DNA of 64,000 nucleotides, from positions 372,001-436,000 of the forward strand of contig JAQSDM010000011.1 in NCBI GenBank assembly GCA_029945945.1. The letters are read 5' to 3'. The notes beneath the pieces were generated by a model that did no database searches, was not told where the DNA came from, and was given only the letters and a program-made list of their open reading frames with translations. Positions within the stretch are counted from its first letter, which is position 1. Every line of letters begins with the position of its first letter. Origin of the DNA: Algoriphagus sp. Its GTDB lineage: Bacteria > Bacteroidota > Bacteroidia > Cytophagales > Cyclobacteriaceae. Below are positions 50,906-56,657 of the stretch, one piece after another. Both the position numbers and the translations under genes were made by a program.

Positions 50906-53900
50906 TCAGGCTTTTTTTACCAATACGGCAATTTCAAAATCATCCATGTCAAGCATTACTGCGCCTTCCGGATTTGCGGAGAGCTCCAAACTCAATGCCT
51001 GAGTCTCGGACTGAATATAATCACCAAATCCCGCCAAAGAAGCGTTTACCAAATCATTATCATTTGCAATCGTCACATAAATCTTGTCTTGCACTTCCAG
51101 TCCCATGTCTTTTCGAAGATTCTGAATTCTGTTTACCAGATCACGGGCAATCCCTTCCTGCTTGAGTTCGTCGGTCAGAGTCACGTCCAAAGCCACCGTC
51201 ACTCCCTGATCGGAAGCCACAGACCAGCCTGGAATATCCTGGGAAGTAATCAATACTTCTTCCAAAAGAAGCTCGATTGATTCGCCTTCCACATCCACTG
51301 AAATCTTGCCTTCCTGCTCGATTTGTGTAATTTCGGATTGACCCCATTTGTTGATAGCCGCTACTACAAAACGCATCTTTTGTCCCAGTTTCTTACCCAG
51401 AAGAGGAAGATTTGGTTTCACGCTTTTTACAAGAATTCCCGAAGCATCATCGATGTACTCGATCGCTTTGATGTTCACTTCAGACTTGATCAGCTCTTCT
51501 ACGTGAGCAATCTGAGTTTGTGATTTTGCATTCAGTACCGGAATCAGGATTCGCTGCAACGGCTGGCGAACCTTCATTTTCTCTTTCTTTCGAAGTGAGT
51601 GAACAAGTGAAGATATTGTCTGAGCCATGTCCATGCTGGCTTCCAGATCTGCATTGATCAAGACAGAATCCGCAGAAACCCAATCGGTCAGGTGGATAGA
51701 AGCTTTTGCATCTGATCCCGACTCAGTCAGATTCTGATACAACCAATCTGCGTAAAAAGGAGCAAAAGAAGACATCAACTGCGAAAGAGAAAGCAAGCAC
51801 TCATACAAAGTTTCATAGGCCGCCCGCTTATCCGCATTCATTTCTCCTCTCCAGAATCTCTTCCTTGCAAGACGCACGTACCAGTTGGACACATGATCCA
51901 CGGTGAAATTCATGATCGCACGGGTCGCTTTCGTCGCGTCGTAATTATCCATCGATTCCTCCACTTCGGTGATCAAGGACTGAAGCTTGGAGATGATCCA
52001 CTGATCGAGTTCAGCGCGCTCGTTTACCGGAATTGCTTTTGATTTATCATACACAAAAGCATCCAGATTGGCGTAAAGCGCAAAGAAATTATAGGTATTC
52101 TGAAGGGTGCCAAAGAAGCGTCTCTGCACTTCAGCTACGCCATCCAGATTGAATTTCAGGTTATCCCAAGGGTTGGCATTGCTAAGCAAATACCAGCGCA
52201 AGGCATCCGGTCCGTATTCTTTCAATGTCTTGAACGGATCCACAGCATTGCCCAATCTCTTGGACATTTTGTTTCCGCTTTTGTCCAGGACAAGTCCGTT
52301 GGCTATGACATTTTTGAAAGCCACGCTGTCGAAAAGCATCACAGCGATTGCATGCAACGTAAAGAACCAGCCACGAGTCTGATCCACGCCTTCGGCGATG
52401 TAGTCAGCAGGATAATTTGCTTTGAAAATTTCCTCGTTTTCGAATGGATAATGCCATTGAGCATAAGGCATCGCGCCTGAGTCAAACCAAACATCAATCA
52501 GATCCGCCTCCCGTACCATCTTTTCTCCTTTGTCAGAAACCAAAATCACATCATCCACAAAAGGGCGATGAAGATCCAGCTCTTTGCCTTCGTAAGGAGA
52601 TTTTGCCATAAAGCCTTTGGCTACTGACTTCTCGATTTCGGCATTCAACTCAGCGATTGAGCCGATGCATTTCTCTTCCGTTCCGTCGGTTGTTCTCCAG
52701 ATTGGAAGAGGCGTACCCCAGAATCGGGAGCGGCTTAGATTCCAGTCCACCAAATTTTCCAGCCAGTTGCCAAAGCGACCTGTCCCGGTTGCTTCCGGTT
52801 TCCAGTTGATAGTTTTATTCAGCTCGACCATGCGATCCTTGTAAGCGGTGGTTTTAATAAACCAGCTTTCCATCGGATAATAAAGGATCGGCATGTCAGT
52901 TCTCCAGCAATGCGGATAGCTGTGCTCGTATTTTTCGACCTTGAAGGCCTTGTTTTCATTTTTCAGAATGATGGAAATGATCACATCCGTGTTTTTGTAA
53001 TCAGCCGCATTCTCATCATCCTTCGGGTAATTCTTCACAAAGAAATCATTCACACCAAAAGTCTTGTGTGCGGTGATTCCATGCTCTTTCATCTTGCCCA
53101 AAAGGTATTCTCCAACTAGTGGAATAAATTTCCCCTGCTTGTCTACGATCGGAATTTCATTTCCCTGCTCATCTTTCACAAAGACACCAGGCACATTATT
53201 CTGAACCAAAGTTCGAAAGTCATCCGCACCAAAAGCTTTAGCAAGGTGAACGATTCCGGTACCATCTTCGGTCGTCACATAATCACCGGAAACCACCGTG
53301 AAAGCAGGTTTTGGAAGTTCCAACCCTGCGATCGGGAACAATTGCTCATACTCCCAACCCAGCATGGTTTTACCTTTGAACTCTTCGATCACCTCGAACG
53401 GGATCAATTTGTCCCCAGACTTATAGTCTTCCAGTTTCAACTCTGCAGCTTTTGGATTCAAGTAACCATTCATTCTGGCTTTCGCCAGGATCACCGTTGC
53501 CGGCTCAAAAGTATACGGGTTGAAAGTCTTCACTTTCACATAATCCAGGTTCTCACCAATTGCCAAAGCCGAGTTGGAAGGCAAAGTCCATGGCGTGGTC
53601 GTCCAGGCAAGGATGAACGTATTTTCTTCTCCTTTCAGCTTAAACTGCGCTGTGATGGAAGTGTCTTTTATGTCTTTATAAGTACCAGGCTGATTAAGTT
53701 CGTGTGAACTCAAACCTGTACCCGCAGCAGGCGAAAATGGCTGAATCGTGTACCCTTTGTACAACAACCCTTTGTCATAAAGTTTGCGAAGAAGCGACCA
53801 CAAGCTCTCGATATAATTTGAATCAAACGTGATGTAAGGATCATCCAGATCCACCCAGTAACCGATTTTCACAGTCAGGTCATCCCATTCGTTTTTGTAT

Positions 53901-54280
53901 CGCATCACCGTCTCCCGGCACTTGCGGTTGTATTCCTCCACGGAGATTTTCTTACCGATATCCTCTTTGGTGATGCCCAGCTCTTTTTCCACCTGAAGCT
54001 CCACCGGAAGTCCATGCGTATCCCAGCCACCTTTTCTTTTTACTTGGAAACCTTTAAGGGTTTTGTATCGGCAAAAAATATCCTTCAGGGCACGCCCCAT
54101 CACGTGGTGAATACCCGGCGTTCCATTTGCCGAAGGCGGACCTTCAAAAAAAGTGAAGGTTTCCGCACCCTCTCTGTTGGCGATGGACTGATCGAAAATC
54201 TTATTTTCTTTCCAATACTGAAGGACTGATTCCCCTATTCCGGGATAATCGACCTGTTTAAATTCCTGATACGTTTTCAC
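50906..54280 (-). CDS. ileS: isoleucyl-tRNA synthetase
   Basis: IleS charges tRNA-Ile. The 1124-aa class Ia enzyme has the HIGH-type motif GTPGIHHVMGR (53-63), KGGWDTHGLPVE, the CP1 editing domain (TTEDGTGIVHLAKAFGADD), PYAQWHYPFEN and the KMSKRLGNAVDP loop near residue 671. The long C-terminal part (about 950-1110) is DUF5915-like, and there is no C-terminal Cys4 zinc finger, so it is of the long eukaryote-like/IleS2-type family, which is common in Bacteroidota. In other bacteria that type is linked with mupirocin resistance; here it appears to be the only copy visible. Confidence 0.95.
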   Translation of the reverse strand: MKTYQEFKQVDYPGIGESVLQYWKENKIFDQSIANREGAETFTFFEGPPSANGTPGIHHVMGRALKDIFCRYKTLKGFQVKRKGGWDTHGLPVELQVEKELGITKEDIGKKISVEEYNRKCRETVMRYKNEWDDLTVKIGYWVDLDDPYITFDSNYIESLWSLLRKLYDKGLLYKGYTIQPFSPAAGTGLSSHELNQPGTYKDIKDTSITAQFKLKGEENTFILAWTTTPWTLPSNSALAIGENLDYVKVKTFNPYTFEPATVILAKARMNGYLNPKAAELKLEDYKSGDKLIPFEVIEEFKGKTMLGWEYEQLFPIAGLELPKPAFTVVSGDYVTTEDGTGIVHLAKAFGADDFRTLVQNNVPGVFVKDEQGNEIPIVDKQGKFIPLVGEYLLGKMKEHGITAHKTFGVNDFFVKNYPKDDENAADYKNTDVIISIILKNENKAFKVEKYEHSYPHCWRTDMPILYYPMESWFIKTTAYKDRMVELNKTINWKPEATGTGRFGNWLENLVDWNLSRSRFWGTPLPIWRTTDGTEEKCIGSIAELNAEIEKSVAKGFMAKSPYEGKELDLHRPFVDDVILVSDKGEKMVREADLIDVWFDSGAMPYAQWHYPFENEEIFKANYPADYIAEGVDQTRGWFFTLHAIAVMLFDSVAFKNVIANGLVLDKSGNKMSKRLGNAVDPFKTLKEYGPDALRWYLLSNANPWDNLKFNLDGVAEVQRRFFGTLQNTYNFFALYANLDAFVYDKSKAIPVNERAELDQWIISKLQSLITEVEESMDNYDATKATRAIMNFTVDHVSNWYVRLARKRFWRGEMNADKRAAYETLYECLLSLSQLMSSFAPFYADWLYQNLTESGSDAKASIHLTDWVSADSVLINADLEASMDMAQTISSLVHSLRKKEKMKVRQPLQRILIPVLNAKSQTQIAHVEELIKSEVNIKAIEYIDDASGILVKSVKPNLPLLGKKLGQKMRFVVAAINKWGQSEITQIEQEGKISVDVEGESIELLLEEVLITSQDIPGWSVASDQGVTVALDVTLTDELKQEGIARDLVNRIQNLRKDMGLEVQDKIYVTIANDNDLVNASLAGFGDYIQSETQALSLELSANPEGAVMLDMDDFEIAVLVKKA

Positions 54281-54532: not shown

Positions 54533-55645
54533 TCAGAAGTCCAACCCAAGGCCATAGCTTACGCTTCGCCCGCCACCGGAAGGAATAAATACTCCCAAAT
54601 CCCGCAATTCCTGCAAATCTCGAGTAGCAGTTGGCTTTGAAGCGTTCGTTATTGCCATGTATTTTTTGGCGCTCATTCCACCCCCAAACCCATCAGGACC
54701 TTCTTCCAACATTCTGTTTATTGCCTTGATTTGTCGGTCATTCAATCTGGAACGATATGCGTCAAAAAACTTCATTTTTTTCAAAGTGAATTGAATCAGG
54801 CGCTCGGCAGCTTGCTGTGCTTGAATCACTGTCCCGGCAAAATAATTCAGCCAATTCGTGATTTCATTCGAGCGCTGCGCCTTTTTCAAACCCTCGTAAT
54901 ACGCATTCTTATTTTTTTCTATCGTATTCGAAAGACTGATCAGCGTTGGTTCTCCAAGACCCTGATGCAATACTTTCTCCGCCAATGCCCTTCCAATTCG
55001 TCCATTTCCATCTTCAAACGGGTGAATCGACTCAAAGTACAAATGTGCAATTCCAGCTCGTGTCATCGGATTGTTGATAGCATCTTTCTGACCCGGTGTT
55101 GTTATGTTAAACCAATCGATAAATCGATTCATTTCTCCCGGAACCAGATCAGAAGGAGGTGCTTCAAAATGAACGGTCTCTTTGCCCACTGGTCCGGACA
55201 CCACCTGCATCGGTGAAGAATCTGTTCGCCATTTCCCAGCCTGCACATACCGATTTCCTTCCATGAGCATCTCATGCCAGGCAAACAAATCAATTTCCTT
55301 TAGTGGTTCAGCATAGGAAGTACGAACTGCGATCATGAGCCGAGCAATTCCTTTCGCCCGATGATCCTTCACCAATACAGGTTGATTTTCATGGATTCCC
55401 AGGTTTTTGCGGATAGAGGACAGTACATCCTGGCGACTGATAAATTCCCCCTCGATTTCAGAAGTCTTGATTGCTTCCTCCACCATCACTTCCAGTATCA
55501 ACTCTGTTTGATTTTCCTTCGGAAAACCTTTTAGATAACCGAAAATCTGACCGGATTTCAAAAGAAATCCGGAATGCAAATTCTCAGAAACAGGCTGATG
55601 ATAGCTGAAGTCAGGCCAGTCCGGAAGCTCCCAATTGTAACTCAT
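54533..55645 (-). CDS. DUF4172-Fic-wHTH protein (class II Fic AMPylase-like)
   Basis: Fic enzymes transfer AMP to protein hydroxyl groups. From ATG at complement 55643-55645 the protein is 370 aa and begins MSYNWELPDWPDFSY, the DUF4172 N-terminal pattern. A start 39 bp upstream (55684) is possible but would put operator 1 inside the gene. An inhibitory helix motif TSEIEG ((S/T)xxxE(G/N); residues 61-66) precedes the Fic domain, making it class II. The active site HPFEDGNGR (208-216) is intact. The last 75 residues form a winged helix (DRQIKAINRMLEEGP, MSAKKYMAITNASKPTATRDLQELRDLG), which suggests that it binds DNA and may regulate itself. No antitoxin gene is adjacent. Confidence 0.92.
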   Translation of the reverse strand: MSYNWELPDWPDFSYHQPVSENLHSGFLLKSGQIFGYLKGFPKENQTELILEVMVEEAIKTSEIEGEFISRQDVLSSIRKNLGIHENQPVLVKDHRAKGIARLMIAVRTSYAEPLKEIDLFAWHEMLMEGNRYVQAGKWRTDSSPMQVVSGPVGKETVHFEAPPSDLVPGEMNRFIDWFNITTPGQKDAINNPMTRAGIAHLYFESIHPFEDGNGRIGRALAEKVLHQGLGEPTLISLSNTIEKNKNAYYEGLKKAQRSNEITNWLNYFAGTVIQAQQAAERLIQFTLKKMKFFDAYRSRLNDRQIKAINRMLEEGPDGFGGGMSAKKYMAITNASKPTATRDLQELRDLGVFIPSGGGRSVSYGLGLDF

Positions 55646-55761
55646 GAGCCGAATATACAAATTATTCGGCTCATAAATTGACATTTTTTGAGCCGAATAA
55701 ATTATTTAACCGGCTCATAATTTGGATTTTTATGAGCCAAATGGAAATTTTATTTGGCTCA
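55645..55761. promoter_or_regulatory. three 29-bp palindromic operators in strict 22-bp half-site register at the fic gene
   Basis: Three palindromes of identical length (29 bp) occupy 55645-55673, 55689-55717 and 55733-55761. Each is made of TGAGCC(G/A) and its complement. The six half-sites begin at 55645, 55667, 55689, 55711, 55733 and 55755, alternating in orientation, each exactly 22 bp from the next (about two helical turns). The outermost site overlaps the ATG of the Fic gene. Half-site arms are conserved while spacers differ, except that an A/T-rich stretch follows every arm. This strongly suggests cooperative binding by a dimeric regulator, most simply the wHTH domain of the Fic protein itself. 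Confidence 0.88.
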
Positions 55762-55772
55762 GGAAATTTGAA

Positions 55773-55803
55773 GTGAGAAATTCAAGGCAAAAAAATTTCT
55801 CAC
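55773..55803. promoter_or_regulatory. additional palindrome GTGAGAAATT upstream of the fic operators
   Basis: Perfect 10-bp arms (55773-55782 and 55794-55803) with an 11-nt spacer. It is off the 22-bp register of the operators and has a different core, so it is either a separate regulator site or a weak terminator hairpin (ATTTTTG follows on the plus strand). Confidence 0.4.
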
Positions 55804-55898
55804 ATTTTTGAAAAAGACCTCTATTCTTTCAATATTATTATATTCAATCTTCTGACAGCCAACTAATAGAGATTTTTACCACCCAATATCATTTCCTG

Positions 55899-55924
55899 CC
55901 CGAGAAGTCCTCGGGAGGTTTTTT
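55899..55924 (+). terminator. terminator-like hairpin in the leader of the 55941 gene
   Basis: Arms CCCGAG and CTCGGG with a 5-nt loop, then AGG and six T, ending 17 bp before the next ATG. A terminator directly ahead of a start codon suggests attenuation or an upstream short transcript; no riboswitch fold was recognised. Confidence 0.5.
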
Positions 55925-55940
55925 AAAGTAATCTCAGAAA

Positions 55941-56657
55941 ATGAAACCCTTTCCTAAACTCCACCTTTGGCTTATTCTTCCTTTCGTTGTTACTCTGGCA
56001 GGATTTAATGGATATTGGAGTGGATTTACCGAAGCCTCATTTCAATGGCATCTACACGGACTGTCTGCAACTTCCTGGTACATCATATTAATTATCCAAC
56101 CCTGGCTTTATCATAACAGACCAATTCAAGTTCACCGAAAAGTCGGAATGGTCGGACTTTTACTTGCAGGAATAGTGGTGGCGTCTGCCCTGAGTGTGGT
56201 AAAAGGCAATCTTTTAACTGTTGACGGTCCCATATTTCCAATCCGCTACAGTCTGTCATTCATTGATATTCTCACTGTGATGGGATTTACCACTTCGGTA
56301 ATCATGTCAGTTTTAAACGCAAAAAACACCCAAGTCCACGCCAGATGGATGATTTCAACCGTCTTCTGGGTTTTAGCCCCAGCAACTGTCAGGCTGTCTT
56401 TTCTCCCACTTGGGATGCTATATCAACCCAAAGAATTCTCTGATTTTCCATTTCTCTGGACAGATGTTTTTATCTGGAATACTGTGCTTATTGTCGGATT
56501 GATCGTCTTTCTGATTTTCCGGGATTATTTGAAAGAAAAGAAAGTGTATTTTTCTTATGTCTTGGTTGGAATTGTACAGCTGATTTCCATTCCCCTGATC
56601 ATTGAAATGAAAGATACTCCTTGGCTCAGAAATGTTCTGGATGCAGTATTTAAATAA
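55941..56657 (+). CDS. polytopic membrane protein, unknown function
   Basis: The 238-aa product has six or seven predicted transmembrane helices (about 9-26, 38-56, 67-87, 100-121, 135-152, 174-193, 205-224). A loop motif IQVHRKVGMVG between helices 2 and 3 and HARWMISTVFW near helix 5 carry histidines in or near the membrane, a pattern seen in DUF2306-like and other haem or metal membrane proteins. I cannot name the family. It is preceded by a terminator-like hairpin. The NTF2-like gene follows by 91 bp on the same strand. Confidence 0.75.
   Translation: MKPFPKLHLWLILPFVVTLAGFNGYWSGFTEASFQWHLHGLSATSWYIILIIQPWLYHNRPIQVHRKVGMVGLLLAGIVVASALSVVKGNLLTVDGPIFPIRYSLSFIDILTVMGFTTSVIMSVLNAKNTQVHARWMISTVFWVLAPATVRLSFLPLGMLYQPKEFSDFPFLWTDVFIWNTVLIVGLIVFLIFRDYLKEKKVYFSYVLVGIVQLISIPLIIEMKDTPWLRNVLDAVFK

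Follow-up and report, generated by a model that had tools for sequence, protein, structure and literature searches.

In a 64,000-nucleotide stretch of an Algoriphagus sp. genome (assembly GCA_029945945.1, contig JAQSDM010000011.1, positions 372,001 to 436,000), hereafter the window, six alternately inverted TGAGCC half-sites lie over the start of a fic gene whose predicted product joins a DUF4172 domain and a Fic domain to a C-terminal winged helix-turn-helix (wHTH). Comparison with other genomes makes it highly probable that this array is the operator of fic itself, autorepressed by the winged helix of its product, with one dimer on each palindrome. Autorepression by the fused winged helix had been put forward in the initial annotation of the window, and it appears to be the best reading of the array: the spacing and position of the half-sites are conserved among homologues, and their letters follow the predicted recognition helix. 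In the mechanism that we propose, one DUF4172-Fic-wHTH dimer would occupy each 29-bp palindrome, its two winged helices each contacting one of the TGAGCC half-sites set 22 bp apart. At fixed spacing, two or three such dimers would fill the promoter and block RNA polymerase, so that the protein would limit its own synthesis. Binding, repression, the dimer as the unit and contacts between neighbouring dimers are what we infer from the data described below.

The TGAGCC/GGCTCA half-sites begin at 55645, 55667, 55689, 55711, 55733 and 55755, and pair into three palindromes that carry TGAGCC/GGCTCA at their ends and are AT-rich in the centre:

55645..55673, strandless: palindrome 1, proximal to the ATG; TGAGCCG-N15-CGGCTCA, 29 bp, with the A of the fic ATG as its final base (55645).
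55689..55717, strandless: palindrome 2; 29 bp, 44 bp from palindrome 1.
55733..55761, strandless: palindrome 3, distal; 29 bp, TGAGCCAAAT..ATTTGGCTCA.

The six starts, the alternating orientation and the three 29-bp palindromes at 44 bp given in the initial annotation were thus all borne out on the sequence, as was the constant 22-bp step; the placement of every half-site on one face of the DNA, also proposed there, holds only approximately, since 22 bp makes 2.1 turns of a helix with 10.5 bp per turn, a drift of about 34 degrees per half-site. The start codon of fic is an ATG with its A at 55645 (minus strand), and the last half-site ends inside it; we set the start there, and not at the ATG of the longest open reading frame (ORF) at 55684, because homologues begin MxYNW. 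The exact pattern TGAGCC-N17-GGCTCA occurs three times in the 4.84-Mb genome (14 contigs), always in the fic array, and its reversed control pattern had no match in that genome. When up to two mismatches were allowed, the window held four matches against a shuffle mean of 1.84; the three of the array have no mismatch and the fourth has two.

The search for homologues covered 148 genomes of the family (56 matching, E 1e-40), 390 genomes of the order (90 matching, E 1e-60) and a named genome collection, which gave 79 loci; plasmids added 446 records, of which 7 were read. Plasmids aside, 175 matching loci gave 155 distinct proteins, of which 148 were full length and 147 had usable upstream stretches, and these were grouped by identity to the window protein as near (at least 50%, n=89), mid (39-50%, n=36) or far (<39%, n=22). 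Phyla were taken from record titles, the remaining genomes being of the window's order. A 29-bp palindrome with at least eight of nine matching outer pairs was found upstream of 85/89 near, 27/36 mid and 19/22 far genes, whereas shuffled upstream stretches gave 3.0, 1.0 and 0.2 genes, respectively (mean of five shuffles). Direct repeats at 44 bp were present in 73/89 near and 28/36 mid genes (4 and 2 in shuffles), and in the far group the repeat distances were 34 (11/22), 20 (7/22) and 54 bp (7/22). At least four alternating half-sites in steps of 17-26 bp preceded 83/89 near genes and, with plasmid genes included, 27/43 mid genes; such chains appeared in 1/267 near, 1/129 mid and 2/66 far shuffles.

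The geometry of the unit was also maintained. For these tallies, palindrome positions came from free fits, which accommodate 45-bp spacing and genes with three palindromes, and genes with fewer than seven of nine matching pairs were left out. Among the 61 near genes of Bacteroidota, the palindrome length was 29 in 119 of 122 forward-reverse neighbours and the gap between palindromes was 15 bases in 60 of 66; four half-sites were counted in 41 genes and six in nine, so that most homologues carry about four, that is, two palindromes. The 29-bp unit persists in the far group (20/23 forward-reverse neighbours), with units separated by 4-5 (9/15) or 25 bases (4/15) instead of the 15-16 of the near and mid groups, so that the distance shrinks or grows by about one helical turn. 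The 29-bp palindrome is not unique to fic, as 11 of 87 control ORFs of the DUF4172 loci also had one, a frequency above that of shuffles. A lack of conserved spacing in homologues was what the initial annotation had named as refuting its idea; half-site spacing and position were instead found conserved upstream of DUF4172-Fic-wHTH homologues, and, judged from these upstream stretches, the design of the array is conserved with the gene in Bacteroidota, Nitrospirota and Proteobacteria.

The array is, in addition, aligned with the start codon: the last half-site has its outer end at the A of the ATG in 59/61 near Bacteroidota genes, 16/17 Nitrospirota genes, 10/12 near Proteobacteria genes and 29/41 mid genes. 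The -7 box of Bacteroidota is TAnnTTTG. This motif begins at -34 in 60/94 Bacteroidota genes, and therefore its final two letters are the TG of a half-site; it was found there in 0/17 Nitrospirota and 0/15 Proteobacteria genes. TATAAT, on the other hand, begins at -12 in 11/17 Nitrospirota, 8/15 Proteobacteria and 4/94 Bacteroidota genes, and in the TGAGCC type it stands directly before CGGCTC-ATG. The string TATAAT-CGGCTC-ATG, from -12 to +3 of fic, was seen in many loci of Nitrospira (L070-L106) and Gammaproteobacteria (L108-L126), for which a leaderless mRNA with a -10 box abutting the last half-site is predicted. In the window one such element was located:

55652..55657, minus strand: TATATT, a possible -10/-7 element at -12 relative to the ATG, inside palindrome 1.

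In the window fic and eight other Bacteroidota genes TAnnTTTG is missing at -34 and TATATT stands at -12, which would fit a promoter that shifted inside a fixed operator; neither a -34 nor a -12 box was present in 26/95 Bacteroidota genes. Where the -12 box is used, the transcript would start at about the ATG and be almost leaderless. Matches to a -35 hexamer were weak. Together, these data suggest that the operator is constant and that the promoter-like boxes inside it vary, mostly with the host phylum.

The same palindromes could be read as acting in RNA, as leader hairpins of fic that would mask the start codon or terminate transcription. The transcribed strand from 55640 to 55765 does fold at -51.1 kcal/mol, against a shuffle mean of -18.8 (z -10.3), and a simple sigma-70 scan of 55500-56000 gave two weak minus-strand matches (9/12 letters; 55862-55834 and 55832-55804) upstream of the array, out of four on both strands where 1.4 were expected. 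Such folding, however, is expected of any palindrome, and hairpins have no need of the single half-site word that is repeated across the palindromes of a gene, nor of letters that follow the recognition helix. As the recurrent promoter-like boxes at -34 or -12 would also put most of the array upstream of the transcript, we consider a role in RNA very improbable, and an operator read as DNA is preferred.

The protein that would read this operator has the following features:

54533..55645, minus strand: fic, 370 aa; DUF4172, Fic and C-terminal winged helix.
55394..55639, minus strand: DUF4172 domain, residues 3-84; PF13776 at 78.5 bits, Pfam cut-off 25.
54968..55303, minus strand: Fic domain, residues 115-226; PF02661 at 63.6 bits, cut-off 24; it carries HPFEDGNGRIGR.
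54536..54745, minus strand: winged helix, about residues 301-370; model helices 303-313, 326-333 and 337-349, strands 353-356 and 363-366.
54599..54637, minus strand: predicted recognition helix, residues 337-349; residue 337 is K.

The AlphaFold model of the product has a mean predicted local distance difference test (pLDDT) score of 91. Pfam models of the helix-turn-helix (HTH) fell below their cut-offs, and the winged helix is supported by the AlphaFold model and by alignment with structure 8cil, that of CbFic2, which is the closest solved relative by sequence and fold (207 bits; template modelling score 0.81, 34% identity over 377 columns). The DUF4172 domain includes TSEIEG at residues 61-66, which we take to be a class II inhibitory motif, the name that it also bears in CbFic2. 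Its E65 is invariant in 33 aligned sequences, as are P209, G213, N214, G215, R216, G218 and R219, and H208 is found in at least 90% of them. Thus the catalytic Fic motif HPFEDGNGRIGR and the inhibitory glutamate are both recognizable in the product, whose predicted domains are those of the DUF4172-Fic-wHTH (CbFic2) type. The PADLOC SoFic model matched it at 161 bits; the NCBIfam SoFic equivalog NF046030 reached 59.2 bits against a cut-off of 550, and Fic_N 15.3 against 26.7. According to the list of ORFs of at least 80 aa, the upstream neighbour is divergent, at 55941, and the same-strand gene downstream of fic (50906-54280, minus strand), presumably ileS for isoleucyl-tRNA synthetase, is separated from it by about 250 bp.

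If the winged helix reads the half-sites, their letters should change with it, and a clear association was found between the half-site word and the start of the recognition helix. The SKATATRD helix pairs with TGAGCC / TGAGCCGA and SRATATRD with TGAGTTAT; the TAS/TSS/SPA types pair with TGAGCTAT, and the PSA and TSA types with TGATTTAT or TGATCTAT; SQDTA goes with TGCGGAG / TGCGGAGA, and S(N/T/P)DTAL with TGCGGTG / TGCGGTGA. In a coarse table, K337 accompanies the GCC class in 92 genes and its absence the TAT class in 34, with one gene breaking the rule; a finer rule joining AGTT to R337 has 5 exceptions among 38 rows. Of the columns tested, 337, where the predicted recognition helix begins, shared the most mutual information with the letters of the half-site. 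This analysis and the Mantel tests mentioned below used 145 of 155 rows and skipped columns with more than 20% gaps; the rows dropped had fewer than seven of nine matching pairs, no arm starting in TG, or one of three words judged to be register errors.

A stronger argument than the association of helix and word is provided by genomes with two such genes. In seven of them, picked by hand, the two paralogues are 32-46% identical and each has its own half-site and its own helix. A regulator encoded by the host could in principle bind the array and control fic, but one shared regulator is not expected to read two different words in one genome. The same array accompanies the gene across hosts of different phyla, and within the order all 37 genomes with a TGAGCC-type gene show the operator pattern (hand tally, with at most five candidates scored per genome at first); the 38th, G278, has the gene without its start and no operator pattern. 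What would favour a host regulator is the presence of palindromes in genomes that have no TGAGCC-type fic. The pattern TGAGCCR-N15-YGGCTCA was found in 70 of the 390 order genomes (its reversed control in 5, by row count), and 33 of 353 have it although scoring of every candidate gave no full-length gene of the TGAGCC type; the best candidates in these 33 were 49% (G039) and 46% identical (G026), both of the mid type, and the rest at most 38%. Many of these sites, however, look like relics or chance matches, and we regard control by a host regulator as very improbable.

This judgement draws on 12 stretches read among the 70 pattern genomes, 11 of them in the 33; the stretches were chosen for lying away from fic matches. 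Three (L181, L184 and L188) look like relics in which the operator and a start codon were kept and the gene is gone or replaced, in L181 (1491-1563) and L188 (1459-1531) after the first codons. L187 is an array without a gene, six loci (L179, L180, L182, L183, L185 and L186) have single palindromes by other genes, and L189 and L190 look like chance. Among 15 genomes studied by sequence only, G443 has two palindromes 44 bp apart (C1 269797-269869) and lacks the gene with all candidates scored, and AT-rich arms resembling those of the operator occur in G378, G410, G275 and at one site of G304; to the eye, the rest look like chance. We interpret L181, L188 and G443 as traces of repeated gene loss.

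Single copies of the fic palindrome were also noted near unrelated genes at L179 1506-1534, L180 1497-1525, L182 1543-1571 and L186 1496-1524. In L180 and L182, from two genomes of one genus, the palindrome lies 3' of the same gene and its word resembles the fic operator of that group. Such single palindromes may be what is left of lost cassettes, or terminators put to new use; L179 adjoins a homologue of the window's divergent neighbour (55941) and therefore may be the trace of a copy that was lost.

Relics of the operator with no intact gene would also be left if the repeats were the ends or recombination sites of a fic-carrying mobile cassette, and the occurrence of the family in several phyla and on plasmids (446 records) is in line with this idea. 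The array, however, was seen 5' of the gene, 3' sides not having been searched systematically, and there it keeps register with the start codon and the promoter-like boxes; its letters change with the recognition helix, and phage records gave no match at E 1e-10. We consider this explanation extremely improbable.

Even though these results favour autorepression by the fused winged helix, several observations weigh against it. Descent partly confounds the link between helix and operator: the three main half-site classes form clades, for which two changes on the tree suffice, and the independent pairs or contrasts available for sign tests on the tree were too few for significance. Columns 108, 73 and 97, outside the wHTH, rank directly behind 337 in mutual information. 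In Mantel tests the operator distance correlated with the Fic domain (0.69), the helix (0.60), the wing (0.62) and residues 300-333 (0.63), and the higher value of the Fic domain weakens the case for the helix; given the Fic domain, partial correlations of 0.25 for the helix, 0.35 for the wing and 0.19 for residues 300-333 were left, each reached by 0/999 permutations, which do not take out relatedness. Locus L130 (Pedobacter assembly, 37% identity) has an SKATATRD helix with K337 and no TGAGCC operator upstream. Alternating chains in steps of 17-26 bp were found in 0/22 far genes, and single palindromes and arrays without a gene do exist. The partition of promoter boxes among phyla is not strict, since with plasmid genes added 1/21 Proteobacteria genes has TAnnTTTG at -34, and at five of six letters the -12 box occurs in 33/95 Bacteroidota, 12/17 Nitrospirota and 11/21 Proteobacteria genes. 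Finally, CccR, a Fic protein reported to repress its own gene, has a site of different geometry, with 10-bp arms and a 26-bp spacer (PMC9755527).

Whether neighbouring dimers touch is a separate matter. Autorepression could operate through independent dimer sites, with no lattice and no dimer-dimer contact, a possibility to which we give somewhat under an even chance. Spacing within the palindrome is nearly fixed (29), while between palindromes it is mostly 15 or 16 in near and mid genes and 4-5 or 25 in far ones, and CbFic2 was non-cooperative on random DNA (PMC10628234). Against independent sites, the palindromes follow one another start to start at about 34, 44-45 or 54 bp, in steps of roughly one turn, so that helical phase is roughly kept, and the arrays of SoFic-type genes, described next, run at 40-42 bp. 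This phasing suggests contact between dimers, but independent dimers fit almost as well.

Fic_N (SoFic-type) genes had been included as a negative control, with 30 loci from relatives (L198-L227) among 42 listed matches; a SoFic-like C-terminal domain was above cut-off in five of the seven scanned. At least four alternating half-sites preceded 18 of the 30 genes (4/90 in shuffles). Of 53 same-orientation intervals, 51 measured 40-42 bp, and the words included TGTAAAG, AGGGTAA and GCAATTA (in loci such as L198, L209, L210, L213 and L219). A 29-bp palindrome was present in 16 of the 30, with equal or higher numbers at lengths 30, 32 and 34. Starts were set at the most upstream ATG, and some may be wrong; L211 (129 aa) and L218 (92 aa) are short frames. 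As this control set also shows arrays, the idea that they are exclusive to the DUF4172 type was rejected.

Taken together, these observations admit a broader reading, speculative and in our view rather unlikely, in which phased arrays would be general to wHTH-fused Fic enzymes (44 bp in the DUF4172 type, 41 bp in SoFic), with a private word for each paralogue. Docking on the array would silence the gene and lock the enzyme in a dimeric, deAMPylating state; on a change in free protein or in the state of the chromosome the enzyme would leave, AMPylate and restart its own gene, a one-gene switch resembling a toxin-antitoxin system with promoter DNA as the antitoxin.

The principle of autorepression by a Fic-HTH protein is not new, as it is already published for CccR of Yersinia pseudotuberculosis. 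CccR is reported to repress itself as a dimer through inverted repeats near -35/-10, with evidence from footprinting, electrophoretic mobility shift assays, a reporter and a dimer mutant (PMC9755527). CccR resembles the window protein in having a Fic domain with a C-terminal HTH, and fic likewise has an inverted repeat over its own predicted promoter; the two proteins share 16% identity (entry 7XUX). The CccR site as given there is one inverted repeat of 46 nt, AGATAATCAT-N26-ATGATAATCT, whereas the window has three phased 29-bp palindromes and its relatives two or three. A phased multi-palindrome Fic operator was not found described in searches of open-licence literature, judged from the available parts of PMC9755527, PMC10628234, PMC12249575 and PMC12894286. 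What appears to be new is therefore this operator of two or three phased palindromes, its conservation across phyla while the promoter boxes within it change with the host, the table of helices and words, which offers a draft recognition code between residues 336-338 and half-site letters 3-7, and the arrays of 41-bp period before SoFic-type genes. It is further predicted that cells with several Fic enzymes run a private, insulated feedback loop for each.

CbFic2 of Coxiella burnetii (8cil) has the domain order DUF4172-Fic-wHTH, the class II inhibitory motif and the Fic motif in common with the window protein. It was studied as an enzyme acting on histone H3 and with random DNA; DNA induces dimers and shifts AMPylation to deAMPylation, and the authors singled out work on a specific binding sequence as especially interesting (PMC10628234). 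The dimer signal there needed DNA of at least 20 bp and was not obtained with 10 bp, in keeping with half-sites 22 bp apart. As DNA-bound dimers of CbFic2 are the deAMPylating form, the pool of the window protein bound to its promoter would, by analogy, not AMPylate. The array may represent a specific and testable DNA ligand for this family, in which enzyme switching has been followed with random DNA. SoFic, of an anti-phage family, shares with the window protein a Fic domain with a C-terminal wHTH, and SoFic-type genes also have alternating arrays, but it carries Fic_N where the window protein has DUF4172. Phd-Doc, a type II toxin-antitoxin system with a toxin of the Fic fold, represses its own promoter at repeated sites; in the window fic, in contrast, the DNA-binding and Fic domains are parts of one polypeptide.
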